A program made the position numbers and the translations under genes. The notes beneath the pieces are model-generated. The model ran no database searches and had not been told where the DNA came from. It worked only from the letters and a program-made list of their open reading frames with translations. Source: Cytophagaceae bacterium (GTDB lineage: Bacteria > Bacteroidota > Bacteroidia > Cytophagales > Flexibacteraceae). From it: a stretch of 64,000 nt of DNA. Where the stretch lies: assembly GCA_947458545.1 (NCBI GenBank), contig CANGYH010000001.1, positions 1,240,001 to 1,304,000 of the forward strand, given 5' to 3'. Positions within the stretch are counted from its first letter, which is position 1; every line of letters begins with the position of its first letter. Shown here piece after piece: positions 56,338 to 64,000 of the stretch.

Positions 56338-57396
56338 CTACTGTACTACCACACGCTGTACAAACACGCGCTGAGGGGTAACCAGCTCTAGCACATAGGT
56401 GCCTGCGGCTACCTGGCTCACGTCGGCTTGGTTGCCAGTTGATGCCAGGCCTATGCGTTGGCCTTGGAGGTTTAGCAGGCGCGCCTCTTGCACGGCACCG
56501 GCGCCCGCAGGCAACTGCCAGCGTATGGTGCCTTGGGCAGGCTGAGGGTAAACGCGTACCGCACCATAGTTGCGGGCCAACACACTCACTACCTGGGCTA
56601 GCACGGGTACGTCGTGGCCGGTAGAGGTTGACGATGCCGTATTGGGCAGTGAGGTAAGTGTGGGGCGGATGCGGTAGCGCAGTGCGGGGCGCAAGCCCAG
56701 GGGCAGGCGGAAGGTTACCTGCAGGCTGTCTCCGACAAAGGCGGGGGCCACGGAATCGATAACGGTGGTTACTACGCCTGCGCCGCGGAAGATGCCGTTG
56801 CTGTCAGACAGTACGACGCGGAGTTGATCTCCGGGGGAGATAATAAGCTCTGGCCCGCGGAAGACCGTCATGGAGACCTGCTCGCCGGGGGTGTAGGCGC
56901 GCTTTAGCGGGCGCAAGGCACTGCTGTACAGATCGGGCACGCGGGGACGGCACAACTGAATGGCCGAAAAGCCAGTGATTGGGGCTGACACAAAAGCCGG
57001 AGCGGTGGTACGTACGCGTATGGCGACGTTGGTAGATGCAAAACCAGGGATGGTGGCATCGAAGCCGGGGTTCCAGGGCATGTTGTCTGGGATGCGGATG
57101 CCCTTGATGGTATCGGCAGAGGCCGACTTCTGAACGGTGCCTACGAAGCGACCGCCAAAGCGGGTATCGAAGTTGCCGTTTATGTCAGAAAACTCGACCA
57201 TAAACCGGTTGGTATCGGCGAAGGTGACGCCCGCCGCCGCACGATAGCGGATGCTGATGGTGGAGGGCCTGTCGCCGGTGCACCATGGGAAGAAGGCGTT
57301 GGGGATGGGATTGACGACCAGGCTGTCGAATTGGGCCATAGCCGGCATGGCTACGAATGCAGCAGCCACAAGCAATAATGAGCGCATGAAACGCAT
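56338..57396 (-). CDS. T9SS type A sorting-domain protein
   Basis: A 352-residue secreted protein. The start at ATG 57394-57396 gives a signal peptide MRFMRSLLLVAAAFVAMPAM ending at AQ; an in-frame ATG at 57414 is also possible. A beta-sandwich body of about 250 residues follows (PNAFFPWCTGDRP, IRIPDNMPWNPGFD). The last ~75 residues form a type A sorting domain: VRVYPQPAQGTIRWQLP, ARLLNLQGQRI, VAAGTYVLELVTP, VQRVVVQ. It should therefore cross the outer membrane by T9SS and be anchored or released. Function of the body is unknown. The exosortase gene lies 120 bases upstream on the same strand. Confidence 0.88.
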   Translation of the reverse strand: MRFMRSLLLVAAAFVAMPAMAQFDSLVVNPIPNAFFPWCTGDRPSTISIRYRAAAGVTFADTNRFMVEFSDINGNFDTRFGGRFVGTVQKSASADTIKGIRIPDNMPWNPGFDATIPGFASTNVAIRVRTTAPAFVSAPITGFSAIQLCRPRVPDLYSSALRPLKRAYTPGEQVSMTVFRGPELIISPGDQLRVVLSDSNGIFRGAGVVTTVIDSVAPAFVGDSLQVTFRLPLGLRPALRYRIRPTLTSLPNTASSTSTGHDVPVLAQVVSVLARNYGAVRVYPQPAQGTIRWQLPAGAGAVQEARLLNLQGQRIGLASTGNQADVSQVAAGTYVLELVTPQRVFVQRVVVQ

Positions 57397-57518
57397 GGTA
57401 GAGGTTGACAACAATTGGGGATTTAACCCAGAGTGAGAAATAAAAAAATTTAATTGAAGAGCGAAGACAAAACTGAAAATTGCAGAGGCATAGCCAAATT
57501 AAACAACCAAAAAAATGG

Positions 57519-58097
57519 CTAAGCCTCTGCAACAGGCGCCTTTGCAAGGCGCAAATGCCAGATTAAAAACAAACCGATAACCAGGCTATAAACAATGCCT
57601 GCGTACACGTATTTGTGGTTAACCTCAAAAAACTCGCGGTAGTAAAGGGCACAAAAACCGAGGGCCATCACCCTGACCAGGTTGCTGGCATGTATTATCA
57701 GCAAACCTAGCGGGATAAACCAAGCCTTTGCCTTTAGGGGGCCTGGGTGGGCCACAATAAAGGCGGCAAAAAGGTATAGCATAGGCAACCCGTTGCAGGG
57801 GGTGCCTACGTTTACGCCGGGCAGGCCATTGATTACAATGAGCTCTGGATATGGAGCAATAATCTCTACTTGTGCGGCATGCCCCAGCAGCCTGATGCAC
57901 CAAGCGGCTTGCTCTGCCACTACGTGGGCGAACCATGGGTCTACCGTCCAAGAGAGGTATGGCTCATAAACCAGAGTCCAAAAACCATAGAAAAAACCGG
58001 CCAGCCCTAAAAATACCAAAGCCTCTCGGCCAGCCAGAGAGGTAGGGGTAAATGTTGTACGCGGAGAGTGTTTAGGCGCTTGCGTAAGGGTTGGCAT
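57519..58097 (-). CDS. Exosortase/archaeosortase family protein
   Basis: A 192-residue membrane protein with about five helices. The catalytic set of exosortases is present: Cys101 in NVGTPCNGLPMLYLF, Arg142 in IHASNLVRVMALG and His161 in FEVNHKYVYAGIVYS. Exosortases are transpeptidase-like enzymes that process proteins with a C-terminal signal made of a short motif, a membrane helix and a basic tail. The next upstream gene on the strand (58198-58479) encodes just such a protein. The exact Xrt subtype cannot be fixed from sequence; this short Bacteroidota form lacks the extra domains of EpsI-type exosortases. Confidence 0.9.
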   Translation of the reverse strand: MPTLTQAPKHSPRTTFTPTSLAGREALVFLGLAGFFYGFWTLVYEPYLSWTVDPWFAHVVAEQAAWCIRLLGHAAQVEIIAPYPELIVINGLPGVNVGTPCNGLPMLYLFAAFIVAHPGPLKAKAWFIPLGLLIIHASNLVRVMALGFCALYYREFFEVNHKYVYAGIVYSLVIGLFLIWHLRLAKAPVAEA

Positions 58098-58197
58098 TCA
58101 ACTATGGGGATTGCAGTCAGCAGGTATGGCGGCTTGTGGCCTATAAAAGCCAATACCCGGCCGCCGAAAGGCAGCCGGGCTTGGCTTGCGAGATGCA

Positions 58198-58479
58198 CTA
58201 GGCGGTTTGAGCCTTGCGCTTGTTTTGCCACACGCGGCGGGCACCCATGGCGCCACCAGCAGCTAGCAGGATAGACAGGCCGCCGTCGATGGGAACGTTG
58301 GCAGGAGAGGGGCCACCTGGAGAGCCAGGGCCACCAGCCTGGCCGATAGGCGTGCCTACCGTACCACCGGCAGCTGCACAGTCGGCAGCGTCAAAGTCAG
58401 GATCCGTAGGGATGCAGATGTCTGCATGTGCGGCCGAGAAGGTCAGCGTGAAAGCGACCAGGGTCAAAAGCTTCTTCAT
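58198..58479 (-). CDS. PID-CTERM sorting-domain protein
   Basis: A 93-residue protein with a signal peptide (MKKLLTLVAFTLTFSAAHA), a Gly/Pro-rich spacer with two acidic Cys-containing segments, and a C-terminal tripartite signal. That signal is NVPIDGGLS at 61-69 (PIDGG motif at 63-67), a short hydrophobic helix to about 80, and a basic tail RRVWQNKRK. This matches the PID-CTERM type recognised in Bacteroidota, predicted substrates of a dedicated exosortase. It sits directly upstream of the exosortase gene, which ends the search for a partner. The mature part is tiny, so it is more likely a structural or signalling peptide than an enzyme. Confidence 0.85.
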   Translation of the reverse strand: MKKLLTLVAFTLTFSAAHADICIPTDPDFDAADCAAAGGTVGTPIGQAGGPGSPGGPSPANVPIDGGLSILLAAGGAMGARRVWQNKRKAQTA

Positions 58480-58574: not shown

Positions 58575-61500
58575 TTATTGAGCGTTGGCTACGCGGGTTA
58601 CACCATTTACTGAGCCTGACACGCGGATCTGGTAGACACCAGCAGCGGCAGGGGCAGGTACGGTAGCTTCTGCAGCGCCACCGGCAACCGCAGAGCGGCT
58701 AACCAGTTTGCCGGCAGCATCTACCACCTCTACTACAGCGCCGTTTTGGTTACCAGCCAGGATTACGCGGATACCATCGGTAGCGCGGAAGGCTTGTACA
58801 GGCGTGGTAGCCTCTGACAGACCCTGGCGGAAGATGATGGCCATACGGTCGCGCTCGCCGGCGGCGAAGGCGGTACCGTTGTTAAGCTCGATGGTGCGGC
58901 CGGTAGCGGCATTCACGGCGTAAGCTTTGATACCGGCAGGCAGGTTGATGCCTTCTACGGTAGCCTGGCCTTGGCCTACGAAGCCCAGCTCGATGCGGCT
59001 GTTGGCGTCGATGGCAACGGGAGCCATGGTCAGAGGCTCAGCGGCGTCTTTTACGAACAAGGCAGGCGCGCCTTTTACGTTAGAGAACATCTTCTCCACA
59101 CGCTCGCCACGGGTGTTTACCAGGATTTCGTCGGCACCACCTTCGGTACGGAAGGCAACGCGGATGGCTTCGCCCTCGGCTGCACCCTCGCGGATGAAGG
59201 TATTAGGCGTAGACTGTACTACACGCACGGTGTTGTTGAGCGTGAAGGTTACAGGTGAAGCACCTACGGTGCTACGACGCACGAGGAAGCCTTGGCCAGG
59301 AGCGATTACGTTGTTGGCACCACCGGTAGTAACACCCGTAGAAGAGATGGTACCGTAGTTGTTGGTGGCAGAGTTCCATACCCAGGCAGCCAGGGTAGAG
59401 GCAGCAGAGTTACCGGCGATGGCAGATACCAGGCTCCAGCGGATGGGAGAAGGGTAAGGGTTGCCGAGGCTGTTCCAGCCGCGAGATACGCCAGGCGTGG
59501 TGGTAGGACGCACCAGGCTAGCCGTACGTGTGCCGGTAGCGAGGGTACCCCGGAAGTTGAAGGTTTTGGCGCCCGTCGTCAGGACGGTGAAACCGGCCAT
59601 CTGAGGCATAGACTCGCCAGCGCAAGGATCGATGATGTTGATCCAGCTGTTGGTAGGCTCGGCAAACTCTTTGATGTCTGCACAAGTGATGCCGGCAACC
59701 TCAGGAGCGGTGGCGTTGTCGAAGGTGGCACCAGCGAGAGGAGCGGCGATGTGGCGAACGTTGCCCGTGGTGAAGCGAGCGAAACGGATCTGGCCTGAGA
59801 TGGTACCGCTGTTGCCAGCAGAGAAGTCATCAATCATGCCCTGGCGGGTAGAAGATGAGCCGATCGTCAGGTTGTTGCCGGTGGTGAGGATGCCGCTGGT
59901 GAGGTCTAGGACACCGTTTACTATCATGGCTGTGTTAACCGTTACACCGGCGGCGTTGGCGATTTCGAGGTCGCGGCAGGCGGTGAGGAAGTTACCTGTT
60001 ACCTGAGGCGTAGTGCCGTTGAATACGAAGCTAGCGTCGGCGCTGATGGTGCGGGCACCGGTGCTGAACACACCGCCGTTGGCACCTGAGCCGAAGCCGC
60101 CCCCGTTAGATACACGTACGATGGCACCGGCAGCGATGTTGATGGCGCCAGGACCTACGATGGCAAAGCCGTTCAGGTTCAGGACACCGCCAGACTGTAC
60201 CGTCAGAGTGCCAGACACGTTCAGGTCGCGAGAGAGGTTGGCAACACCTGTACCGGTGATGGTTACGTTGTTGTAAGCACCTACTGCGGGAGCCTGCGTG
60301 TTGTTGATGGTCAGGTCACCGGCAGAGAGGAAGTTGGTGAGGCGGGCATCGGTGAAAGAAGCCCCGGTGAGCAGGGGTGAGCCAGCCGTCAAGGTTGGGT
60401 CGATACCGCTGAAGTTAGAGGTACCTACTGCGCCGAAAGTGGTGGCAGCGATGGTGCCCGTGTAGTAAGGAGCAGCCATGCCCAGGGCGGCAGCCGTTTG
60501 AGAGGCAGAACCGTCAACAGTGTTGTTGCGGGTGCCGTCTGTCAACAAGGTGAGGTAGTTGGCCGCGTTGTTGGGGTTGGTACCAGGGCAGGTGATGAGC
60601 GTAGACTGGAAACCGCCCGTGGTGATGAGCGCGTTGGCGTTGCCAACGTCTTGCAACAGCAGCGAGTTTTTAACGGTGGCAGAGTCTGTGCAGAACTTGG
60701 TGTTGTTAGAAGGGCCGTTGGCAACACCTGTGAGCGTAGGCTGCTGGCTGCGGAACAATGACTGCCAGCCTACTACTACTGAGTTGAAGATGGCGGCGGC
60801 AGGACCGGTACGGAAGTTTACACCCCAGCCGTGTGCGTTGCTTACGCTTGTAGCAGCCTCACCTGGACGCAGGGGTCCAATCATGGTGAAGTTGCTGATT
60901 GTTGGAGAGGTGAGCGGGCTTGGAGAGTACTGCGTCTGCGAAGACGTACCGTTTCCACCAGAGTTGGTGTTGTTGTCCAGCTCGAAACCGTTTGAGTTGT
61001 CGTTACCTGAGCCTGAAGGATCGAAGAATGAAGGGTGCTTTACAGACAGACCGAACTGCAGGCGGCCATTGTAGCCTTCGTCGATGTCGAAGTCGTCGTC
61101 AGAACCGGCGAAAGCGATGAGGTATTTGCCGTTTACAGAGCCACCGAACCACTCGAAGCTGTCGTCGTTGGCGTAAGAGACCTGTACGTACTCGCAAGTA
61201 GTGCCAGAGCCAACACCGGCCAGCATGAGGCCGTTGAGCTCTTGGTCTGCAGAGCGGGCGTCACCGGCGAACTCGATACGTACATAGCGGAGGGTGCCGC
61301 TGTTGTCGGTAGCGTCTGTGCCGCCGTAGAACGTCTCGGGGTAGCCAGGCGTAGCCTCGAAACGACGGCCACCGATGTTGGGGGCTTTGTTGAGGTTGGT
61401 GAGGGCACGGCCGCAGATCATCACACCACCCCAGTCGCCTGTGGCGCGAGATGCCGGAGCGTTGTTAGAGGTAAATACGATGGGGTTGGTAGAGGTTCCG

Positions 61501-61901
61501 TTTGCGTTGATGCGGCCGCCTTGGGCTACAACGAGGAAGCTGGGGTTCTGACCGGCACCGGCAGATACACCACGGATAATCGTACCGGGTTGAATGTTTA
61601 GTACACCGCCGGCTTTAACAAACACCTGGCCTTGCAGCACATAGTAGTTGTTGCTCGTCCAAGTTACTGAAGAGGTGATAACGGTAGAGTCTGGTACGTT
61701 GACCAGGGTCTGAGAACCCACAAAGCCAGGGTCGCCGGGATACAGGGTGCTGAGGGGAGAAAAGTTAGCCCAACCAGATGTCCAGTTGGCACCAGCTCCT
61801 TGTCCGAATGCACCGCGGTACGCAGTCTGCGTGAAGAAGGCCTGTGCGTTCACCGCCAGGGCCACCATGCAGAGAGCTACGGTAGTAAAGATTTTTTTCA
61901 T
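58575..61901 (-). CDS. Secreted beta-helix protein, T9SS-type
   Basis: A 1,108-residue exported protein with signal peptide MKKIFTTVALCMVALAVNAQ. Residues about 60-560 carry parallel beta-helix features: VFVKAGGVLNIQPGTIIRG, GGRINANGTSTNPIVFTSN, DWGGVMICGRALTNLN and repeated Asp/Gly-rich turns. A Gly/Asn-rich second region with DLNVSGTLTVQSGGVLNLNG follows. The C-terminal ~150 residues (VRVAFRTEGGADEILVNT, then VVEVVDAAGKLVSRSAVAGG and PAAAGVYQIRVSG) look like a T9SS type A sorting domain. It lies just downstream of a TonB-dependent receptor on the same strand, the common receptor-plus-cargo arrangement of Bacteroidota. Ligand unknown. Confidence 0.85.
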   Translation of the reverse strand: MKKIFTTVALCMVALAVNAQAFFTQTAYRGAFGQGAGANWTSGWANFSPLSTLYPGDPGFVGSQTLVNVPDSTVITSSVTWTSNNYYVLQGQVFVKAGGVLNIQPGTIIRGVSAGAGQNPSFLVVAQGGRINANGTSTNPIVFTSNNAPASRATGDWGGVMICGRALTNLNKAPNIGGRRFEATPGYPETFYGGTDATDNSGTLRYVRIEFAGDARSADQELNGLMLAGVGSGTTCEYVQVSYANDDSFEWFGGSVNGKYLIAFAGSDDDFDIDEGYNGRLQFGLSVKHPSFFDPSGSGNDNSNGFELDNNTNSGGNGTSSQTQYSPSPLTSPTISNFTMIGPLRPGEAATSVSNAHGWGVNFRTGPAAAIFNSVVVGWQSLFRSQQPTLTGVANGPSNNTKFCTDSATVKNSLLLQDVGNANALITTGGFQSTLITCPGTNPNNAANYLTLLTDGTRNNTVDGSASQTAAALGMAAPYYTGTIAATTFGAVGTSNFSGIDPTLTAGSPLLTGASFTDARLTNFLSAGDLTINNTQAPAVGAYNNVTITGTGVANLSRDLNVSGTLTVQSGGVLNLNGFAIVGPGAINIAAGAIVRVSNGGGFGSGANGGVFSTGARTISADASFVFNGTTPQVTGNFLTACRDLEIANAAGVTVNTAMIVNGVLDLTSGILTTGNNLTIGSSSTRQGMIDDFSAGNSGTISGQIRFARFTTGNVRHIAAPLAGATFDNATAPEVAGITCADIKEFAEPTNSWINIIDPCAGESMPQMAGFTVLTTGAKTFNFRGTLATGTRTASLVRPTTTPGVSRGWNSLGNPYPSPIRWSLVSAIAGNSAASTLAAWVWNSATNNYGTISSTGVTTGGANNVIAPGQGFLVRRSTVGASPVTFTLNNTVRVVQSTPNTFIREGAAEGEAIRVAFRTEGGADEILVNTRGERVEKMFSNVKGAPALFVKDAAEPLTMAPVAIDANSRIELGFVGQGQATVEGINLPAGIKAYAVNAATGRTIELNNGTAFAAGERDRMAIIFRQGLSEATTPVQAFRATDGIRVILAGNQNGAVVEVVDAAGKLVSRSAVAGGAAEATVPAPAAAGVYQIRVSGSVNGVTRVANAQ

Positions 61902-62056: not shown

Positions 62057-64000
62057 CTAAAGGCTGTAGGTAACGGTAAGCCTGATTGTACGACCGTAAG
62101 TTGTACGGAAAAAGGGTATATCGGTACCTTTTCTATACATAGGTGTTCCTAAGAAATCGCGACGGATGGTTTGGTCTATGACGCTGAGGTCGTCGCCGTA
62201 AATCTGGAAGATGGTGAGAGGCTGGGCCAGCAGATCGCCCAGGGTGCCTTTGATGGCCCAGCGGTCTTTGCGGTAGCTGATGCTGGCATCTATTACAGTA
62301 CGGGGGGCCTCCCAGAGGCTGCTCAGGTAATTGTCGCCTACAAAGGCCAGGCGGGTGCCTGTTCTGTTGAGGGTAACGGTGCCCTCTAGGTTGGTGGGTT
62401 TGTGGACGTAGGTGGCCCCGGTGTTGAGCGTATAAGGAGATTGGCCCTGCAAGGGCCGTAAGGGTGCCTCGCCATTGGGCAGCAGCTCGCGCACGCGGAC
62501 CAGCGATTGGATCAGGGCGGCGTTGGCGAAAACCGTCAGGTTGTTGACGAAGGCGTTGGGGTTGGTGGGCTCGGTGGCAGAGAAGCGACGCAAGAGCTGA
62601 CCCGGGGTGAGGCGGATTTCGCCCTCGATGCCGGCCACTGTTGCATCCTGCGCATTGCGGAAGGTGAAGGTGGGGAAAGAGGCTATGTTCTCGCGGGCAT
62701 ACTCGATGGCCTGGTTGATGCGCTTGTAGTAGGGATTGAGCGAAAAGACGGCCCCCTCTTGTGGGTACCACTCAAGCTTGGCGTCGAAGTTGTGGATTTT
62801 AGCGCGGACGATATCTGGGTTGCCGAATACGAGGTTGTTCTGGGTTGGGTCGTAATAGGCTGAGGGCGAGAGCTCGCGGAACTCGGGGCGGTTTACGCTG
62901 GCAAAGTAGGCTCCGCGCAGGTAGAGGTTTTTGCGGATGGCGTATTGCAGGTTGAGGCTAGGCAGCCAATCTACCACGGTAGAGGTGGGGTTTACGGGTA
63001 CGCCGTCTAGCGTGGCGGAGCGGACGTTTTGCCAGTATCTCTCTACGCGAACGCCGTACACGAGGCGGAGGCGGTCGTCGGCGCCCACCTTCGTTTCTGA
63101 CATCAGGTAGCCAGCCCAAAGCCGGGCGGCAGCCTTGTAGAAATCAGAAGCGGCCGTCGTCTCGCGCAGGTAGATGAGGCCACCGCCCATGTTTTGGGGG
63201 CGGAAGATGCTGTCGGGCCCTTGCGTCAGGAGGGGGGCTACGGCTTCGGCGCTGCGCAGGTCGTAGCTGTAGTTGAAGTTGCGGCCGTCGTAGCTGCGTA
63301 AGCGGTCTTGAAAGTAGCCGCCGGTCTTAACCATGTTTTTGACCTTGCCGAAGTTGGCGGGATAGGCCAGATTGACGGCTCCGTTGAAAGACTCGTCGTA
63401 TAATGTAGAGAAGAACTTACCGGCGAAGTTGGGGTTGAACTCTCGGGTTACTGTGAGCAGGTTGACGCGGTACGGCTGGAGGGGGCCTTGGTCTGTTGCC
63501 TGGCGGCTGGTTACATACACAAGGCGGCGCTGGTCTGGCGTTGAGCGGTTGAGCAGGCTGATGCCCGTCAGCACTTCTATACGTCCGCCGTCTGTGCCGA
63601 GGACACGCTCGTAGGCAAGCTGGTGGGTATTTAGGCGGTTTTCGTCGTAAAAGTCGATAAAGGTTTTCCGGAAGTTGATGGCCGTTGCCTGGCCTTCTAC
63701 CTGTTTGCCATCGCCCTGGACGTAGAAGCTGTTGCCTGTTTGGCTAACCATGTTGCGGAAGCTGATTTTGCTGGCCGCATCGGGCCTGAAGGAGAAGTTG
63801 GCTACGCCAGACAAGGAGGCAACTACCCTGAAGCGGCGCTGGGCCAAGCTGTCGAAATCTACGATTTTGCGTTGGCCGGTTACGGAGTCTCGCTTGTCTG
63901 CAAGCAGGTTGAAGTTGAGAAAGTCGGAGAACTGCACCGTGCGATAGTAGTTGGCGCCCAGCACCATGCCGACTTGCTTGCCCCATAGGGTGCCCCTACG
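62057..64000 (-). CDS. TonB-dependent receptor, 5' end outside window
   Basis: The minus-strand frame is open from the stop at 62057 to the right edge (648 codons), and reads through the last in-frame ATG at 63967 as GTLWGKQVGMVLGANYYRTV, so the true start is beyond 64000. The visible part is the beta-barrel of an outer-membrane receptor: alternating strands such as RLRLVYGVRVERYWQNVRSA and NLYLRGAYFASVNRPEFREL, and a C-terminal TTYGRTIRLTVTYSL ending in the aromatic-rich strand expected for Omp85-dependent insertion. The plug and any carboxypeptidase-like N-terminal domain are outside. Substrate unknown. A beta-helix T9SS-type protein is encoded just downstream. Confidence 0.92.
   Translation of the reverse strand, partial: RRGTLWGKQVGMVLGANYYRTVQFSDFLNFNLLADKRDSVTGQRKIVDFDSLAQRRFRVVASLSGVANFSFRPDAASKISFRNMVSQTGNSFYVQGDGKQVEGQATAINFRKTFIDFYDENRLNTHQLAYERVLGTDGGRIEVLTGISLLNRSTPDQRRLVYVTSRQATDQGPLQPYRVNLLTVTREFNPNFAGKFFSTLYDESFNGAVNLAYPANFGKVKNMVKTGGYFQDRLRSYDGRNFNYSYDLRSAEAVAPLLTQGPDSIFRPQNMGGGLIYLRETTAASDFYKAAARLWAGYLMSETKVGADDRLRLVYGVRVERYWQNVRSATLDGVPVNPTSTVVDWLPSLNLQYAIRKNLYLRGAYFASVNRPEFRELSPSAYYDPTQNNLVFGNPDIVRAKIHNFDAKLEWYPQEGAVFSLNPYYKRINQAIEYARENIASFPTFTFRNAQDATVAGIEGEIRLTPGQLLRRFSATEPTNPNAFVNNLTVFANAALIQSLVRVRELLPNGEAPLRPLQGQSPYTLNTGATYVHKPTNLEGTVTLNRTGTRLAFVGDNYLSSLWEAPRTVIDASISYRKDRWAIKGTLGDLLAQPLTIFQIYGDDLSVIDQTIRRDFLGTPMYRKGTDIPFFRTTYGRTIRLTVTYSL

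Follow-up and report, generated by a model that had tools for sequence, protein, structure and literature searches.

Genes for PID-CTERM mini-proteins, which are putative exosortase substrates, are usually found directly behind genes for adhesins of the type IX secretion system (T9SS), and this placement suggests that two export routes work together. The reading that we prefer, at about even confidence, is a coupling between a T9SS adhesin gene and a processing module made up of the PID-CTERM protein and its exosortase. The arrangement was encountered in the window, the whole 64,000-nucleotide stretch of a Cytophagaceae genome that was analyzed, in which a T9SS cargo gene, a PID-CTERM gene, an exosortase gene and a second T9SS cargo gene follow one another on the minus strand, an order that is identical in G002 and G006. 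The linkage joins T9SS and exosortases, which have been studied apart, and offers a reason for the biofilm defect that is common to xrtF and T9SS mutants. Our literature search returned no paper with the term PID-CTERM and no published description of the cargo linkage or of the tiny mature peptide; NCBIfam curators may have noted parts of this. The available portions of two papers from the literature on exosortases and type IX secretion (PMC7468200 and PMC10936215) do not describe the linkage.

The exosortase and PID-CTERM genes of the window

The exosortase gene (positions 57519 to 58097, minus strand) encodes a protein of 192 amino acids. The protein scores 48.1 bits against the exosortase/archaeosortase signature TIGR04178, above the cut-off of 23, and falls slightly under the cut-off of Pfam Exosortase_EpsH (24.2 against 25.7 bits). 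Its best-matching family is exosortase X (NF046081), at 143.1 bits and below the cut-off of 170. In the columns of a 49-exosortase alignment, the Cys/Arg/His triad corresponds to Cys101, the putative nucleophile (codon 57795 to 57797, conserved in 49 of 49), Arg142 (57672 to 57674, 49 of 49) and His161 (57615 to 57617, 48 of 49), all on the minus strand. On the triad and the TIGR04178 match, the enzyme is a predicted member of the exosortase/archaeosortase superfamily, and the complete set of residues reported in the earlier note is borne out. Searches with the window exosortase found no match among PDB sequences and none among plasmid sequences, and thus no sign of plasmid carriage.

Immediately upstream, separated by 100 bp (gene end at 58198, exosortase start at 58097, both on the minus strand), is the gene for a PID-CTERM mini-protein of 93 amino acids (58198 to 58479, minus strand), the putative exosortase substrate. 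A signal peptide was predicted by eye at residues 1 to 19 (58423 to 58479), with cleavage after AHA19. It is followed by a predicted mature peptide of 46 residues that ends at Asp65 and contains two cysteines (58285 to 58422). The PIDGG motif at residues 63 to 67 leads into a hydrophobic transmembrane helix and a basic tail (residues 63 to 93, 58201 to 58293), for which the NCBIfam name is PID-CTERM (NF046080; 31.9 bits, cut-off 26, match over residues 62 to 82). The exported PIDGG protein of the earlier note, with its tiny mature product, is therefore as had been described. A PID gene followed by an exosortase gene is also seen elsewhere (G002, G006, G014, G021, G024, G025, G045, G324, G103, G169 and G091, among others), so the adjacency is not a matter of chance. 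Window-type mature peptides retain the two cysteines, as Cys...DPDFD...Cys, in six family genomes, and these may possibly form a disulfide. A pattern scan, which is not evidence of function, also placed a strong terminator-like hairpin of 11 pairs between the two genes (58155 to 58180, minus strand); its effect may be a lower expression of the enzyme than of the cargo and the mini-protein.

The flanking genes encode T9SS cargo downstream and probable T9SS cargo upstream, in line with what had been claimed. Directly upstream of the PID-CTERM gene, with a gap of 95 bp, is a probable cargo of 1108 amino acids (58575 to 61901, minus strand), which against TIGR04183 (cut-off 23) scores 21.1 bits by hmmscan of the whole protein, below the cut-off, and 24.7 bits by genome search, above it. 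Its residues from about 730 to 1020 (58842 to 59714, minus strand) make up a region related to the adhesins RemA and RemZ, delineated by blastp to the upstream cargos of other genomes and by profile A2. Downstream of the exosortase is the second cargo, of 358 amino acids (56338 to 57414, minus strand; TIGR04183 33.9 bits, cut-off 23).

NCBIfam already names the signal PID-CTERM and the enzyme family exosortase X, both shared with the window, as well as an XrtX-associated membrane protein (NF046082). The window enzyme differs from exosortase X in falling under the cut-off and in belonging to a separate paralogous clade. PEP-CTERM/EpsH systems likewise display a motif, a helix, a basic tail and a Cys/Arg/His triad, and the partnership of signal and enzyme was inferred from co-occurrence, according to the accessible part of PMC1569441. 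In the window, however, the motif is PIDGG rather than PEP, the substrates are very small and the neighbors are T9SS cargo. In the GlyGly-CTERM/rhombosortase system, as the available section of PMC3237569 has it, the target gene tends to adjoin the protease gene when the genome has one target. Rhombosortase, in contrast, comes from an unrelated protease family, and the window genome has several targets.

These further targets are found across the source assembly, which spans 3.23 Mb in 9 contigs. It encodes four PID-CTERM proteins, three above the cut-off and one below it, at 22.9 bits, that is clearly of the same kind. A second exosortase elsewhere in the genome is a canonical exosortase X (181.9 bits, exceeding the cut-off of 170), and behind it lies a gene that matches the XrtX-associated membrane protein only weakly (32.7 bits; cut-off 75). 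The single substrate of the earlier note thus stands for the locus and fails for the genome, with its four PID-CTERM proteins and two exosortases. The three other paralogues have in common an 18-residue mature peptide, DDPPPIGGSPDPIP(V/A)DGG, for which the codons differ at many synonymous positions, and the DDPPPIGGSPDPIP peptide therefore appears to be kept by selection. The genome also has 90 T9SS C-terminal domains (CTDs), and three of its four PID genes lie just behind a T9SS-CTD gene on the same strand; the chance of this is around 7e-7, a figure calculated post hoc after the pattern had been seen. Two observations count against coupling of the module: no cargo lies upstream of the fourth PID gene, and only three of the eight region-bearing cargos in the genome have a PID-CTERM gene behind them.

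Distribution of PID-CTERM proteins and exosortases

Co-occurrence was counted in 392 genomes of the phylum, with an exosortase called where the exosortase X profile matched at E up to 0.001. PID-CTERM is present in 65 of these genomes and an exosortase in 121; all 65 with PID-CTERM also have an exosortase. The absence of PID-CTERM from all 271 exosortase-negative genomes gives a Fisher p of 8.6e-41, in which, as in the counts, kinship is ignored. Among 59 relatives, all 21 PID-positive genomes have an exosortase, and in genus g17 both components are found in G021 and G038 and neither in G053. A strong exosortase X-like protein (>130 bits) occurs in 57 genomes of the phylum, 52 of which have PID-CTERM. 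The precursors have a median length of 68 amino acids, and in the 153 of 160 with a recognizable site the predicted mature peptide has a median of 18 (5th to 95th percentile, 8 to 54). Peptides of this median length, or of the roughly 46 residues in the window, are too small to be an enzyme or a structural protein alone.

In a tree of the 49 exosortases, the window enzyme groups with a copy from G002 and another from G006 (support 99/96), and the canonical copies of the family form a separate group (96/93). Like the window enzyme, its clade relatives remain under the NF046081 cut-off of 170, at 145.9 and 155.3 bits. By score and clade placement the window enzyme is related to exosortase X but diverged from it, a putative second paralogue; it can best be viewed as a duplicate of exosortase X that came to serve its neighbor. 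Across the 11 genomes of the family (G000 to G010), this second enzyme is present in three, six have the canonical type only, and two have none.

These distributions bear on the dedicated enzyme and substrate pair that the earlier note had put forward. A PID-CTERM gene lies directly upstream in all three genomes of the window-enzyme clade (G000, G002 and G006), and in genus g3 the window-type enzyme and window-type PID protein are both present (G002 and G006) or both absent (G008, G009 and G010), so that a dedicated relationship is plausible. A minimal pair nevertheless holds only at the locus, given four substrates and two enzymes in the genome. PID-CTERM proteins of the Cys...DPDFD...Cys type (DADFD in one genome) are also encoded by G003, G004 and G007, where the canonical exosortase is the sole one, and the window-type substrate hence does not need the window-type enzyme. 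Relatives of the window cargo lie upstream of PID genes in G002, G003, G004, G006 and G007. Cargo and PID-CTERM look like the older unit, as G003, G004 and G007 have both without the second enzyme, and on this gene content the two are the more conserved unit.

Linkage to T9SS adhesins

The surroundings of PID genes were surveyed at 175 loci in 75 genomes among the matches listed, made up of an initial 60, a further 114 retrieved by position and a single addition, and leaving out a few listed matches. One locus is a weak match in a 995-residue protein (L284, in G038), which is probably of another C-terminal type and was kept as a locus without an upstream ORF. An upstream ORF had to be on the same strand, to encode at least 100 amino acids and to end within 400 bp upstream of the PID gene. 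Among the matches listed, such an ORF is present at 156 of the 175 loci, and 133 of the 156 carry a T9SS CTD by an HMM built from the other CTDs of the window genome; the other 23 do not, which counts against module coupling. NCBIfam TIGR04183 recognizes 131 of the 150 distinct upstream C-termini submitted, of 152, again among the matches listed, and the tie to T9SS cargo is in this respect stronger than had been noted. By the same limit, one or more T9SS-linked PID genes occur in 58 of the 75 genomes.

Two controls accompany these counts. None of 54 complete ORFs downstream of PID genes carries a T9SS CTD, and only 5 of 38 genes upstream of exosortases do, four of which (L019, L023, L034 and L035) come from loci in which exosortase and PID-CTERM genes are neighbors. 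The linkage between cargo and PID gene recurs across distant classes, with a median gap of 76 bp. Fusion or read-through from cargo into mini-protein was considered and rejected, on account of this gap and the signal peptides that the mini-proteins have of their own.

The linked cargos also share more than the CTD. In the 126 of 133 that were long enough for the part before the CTD to be tested, a region of about 300 amino acids is common to 124, and a seed of 14 members found 109 of the other 112. Pfam has no family for this region, with one weak match among 30 members. Profile A2, built from 30 members with the window cargo as its first row, matches the T9SS adhesins of Flavobacterium johnsoniae in the PDB, namely RemZ residues 717 to 1028 (9.3e-43) and RemA (7e-42). 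The window cargo by itself has no PDB match, and the likeness is seen via the profile. AlphaFold2 applied to three sequences of the region gave a mean pLDDT of 36.6, which is unusable.

The region is found in 63 of the 65 PID-positive genomes and in 166 of the 392 overall, of which 102 have an exosortase and 64 do not; the latter count against coupling of the cargo region to the exosortase module. A small set (7 of 7 against 0 of 7) had made the region look exclusive to exosortase genomes, an idea rejected once these 64 appeared in the larger set.

XrtF and the GLPID mini-proteins

XrtF (TIGR04128) of the Flavobacteriia is a related enzyme of a different subfamily, and its targets are not yet known, according to the accessible text of a 2025 paper with D. 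Haft as a co-author (PMC12188702). In the part available, a study of F. johnsoniae likewise leaves exosortase substrates to future research (PMC10936215). We assembled 43 genomes of the phylum with XrtF at 90 bits or more and no strong exosortase X. NF046080 finds PID-CTERM in eight of them. With a four-row model and a limit of E 0.1, further mini-proteins are found in 25; one of these matches is a false positive, in a genome that contains a second match. A model of 24 rows (E up to 0.01) detects candidate XrtF substrates in 37 of the 43 and in none of 25 genomes of that class that are exosortase-negative. Of the 21 XrtF-only genomes not represented in the model, 15 were matched (Fisher p 1e-7), the weakest being G328 at E 0.006. 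These GLPID mini-proteins are related to the PID-CTERM proteins and have a signal peptide, a helix and a basic tail; a proline-rich stretch is present in most and GLPI(D/N) in many. The A3 match L354 (G125), which has CxxCH motifs and looks like a heme protein, was judged a false positive; A5 left out L354, L328, L336, L339, L342 and L353. Against the PDB, the GLPID profile returned only erbB-4 and a phage coat protein, which were rejected as chance single-helix membrane look-alikes.

In contrast to the window, most GLPID genes do not follow cargo. Only 4 of the 30 top loci place the gene directly behind cargo with the RemA/RemZ-related region, which counts against coupling, and in the XrtF genomes looked at the gene lies near mce and ribE/pdxA. 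In three of these genomes it adjoins ribE and pdxA, and porZ lies 31 to 70 kb away: some 56 kb and 50 ORFs in G258 (porZ by NF052228, 888.5 bits), about 31 kb in G385 and about 70 kb in G365. In G223, porZ is not within the stretch examined around the GLPID gene. In F. johnsoniae, 56 locus tags separate Fjoh_0651 from porZ (Fjoh_0707). As given in the available part of PMC10936215, Fjoh_0651 is a hypothetical protein without a COG, complemented by a 434-bp fragment that includes the presumed promoter, and on that account it is small. Table 2 of the same source puts deletions of xrtF, Fjoh_1449, porU, porZ, Fjoh_0334 and Fjoh_0651 in the same row. The row common to xrtF, porU and porZ speaks for module coupling; against it, such identical rows are coarse and shared by further genes (Fjoh_0334 and Fjoh_0651). 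That Fjoh_0651 is a GLPID gene is our guess from its size, place and phenotype.

Proposed mechanism and alternatives

By analogy with exosortase/PEP-CTERM systems (PMC1569441), the 93-residue precursor would cross the inner membrane via Sec and lose its signal peptide, after which the C-terminal helix would keep it anchored in the membrane, PIDGG facing the periplasm. The exosortase, through Cys101, Arg142 and His161, would then cut near PID-GG and pass the short peptide, of about 46 residues here and about 18 typically, to an acceptor in the envelope that is probably a glycan or a glycolipid. In a final step that is our own addition, RemA/RemZ-type T9SS adhesins would need the displayed peptide to assemble, be anchored or function at the surface, and the PID gene would lie behind the adhesin gene because the peptide serves the adhesin. 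A wider version, which we put forward tentatively and regard as rather unlikely, is that XrtX, the window paralogue and XrtF are all peptide-display machines. They would conjugate PID or GLPID peptides of 10 to 50 residues to an envelope glycan or lipid, and RemA/RemZ-type T9SS adhesins would use the conjugates for docking or assembly. The targets still missing for XrtF would then be the GLPID mini-proteins, one of which may be encoded by Fjoh_0651.

Another account, possible though doubtful in our estimation, is shared regulation: the exosortase would process the mini-protein, and the cargo would be nearby as a co-expressed surface product, with peptide and adhesin never meeting. Gene order is linkage and not contact, and both the 64 genomes that have the cargo region without an exosortase and the five of eight region-bearing cargos in this genome that lack a PID gene behind them fit such a view. 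Plain co-regulation would, however, permit many kinds of neighbor, whereas the observed linkage is to one type of cargo, with the RemA/RemZ-related region in 124 of 126, and it recurs across distant classes.

The notion that one enzyme and one substrate form a minimal dedicated pair beside incidental T9SS neighbors draws on the adjacency throughout the clade of the enzyme and on the joint presence or absence in g3. We think it improbable, as the genome encodes not one but four PID-CTERM proteins, with two exosortases, G003, G004 and G007 combine the same mature type with the canonical exosortase alone, and T9SS linkage is the rule. Less probable still is that the mini-proteins remain uncut as two-helix membrane proteins, acting as adhesin assembly factors or regulators, with co-occurrence reflecting a shared pathway. 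The loop between signal peptide and helix, with a median of about 18 residues, is indeed unusually short for a sorted protein, but the tripartite C-terminus, the signal peptide and the 65 of 65 co-occurrence are the usual marks of an exosortase substrate. Coupling of the processing module to the adhesin gene is the reading that we retain, at the even confidence given above.

Additional features of the loci

In the window, a TonB-dependent receptor is found at 62057 to 64000, upstream of the 1108-residue cargo, and a TonB receptor is likewise placed in the relative L359. The two relatives with the second exosortase have, as the next gene, a T9SS cargo of 972 amino acids (L359, 6563 to 9481; L360, 6573 to 9491), which overlaps or nearly touches the exosortase gene and in both cases gives partial matches to arabinosidase models. 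At L326 and L327 (G430 and G087), the GLPID gene follows a polyprenyl synthase-like gene instead of mce, with the family assigned partly by eye. Tandem PID-CTERM genes are found behind a single cargo in G126 and G341 (L225 with L281, and L084 with L234).
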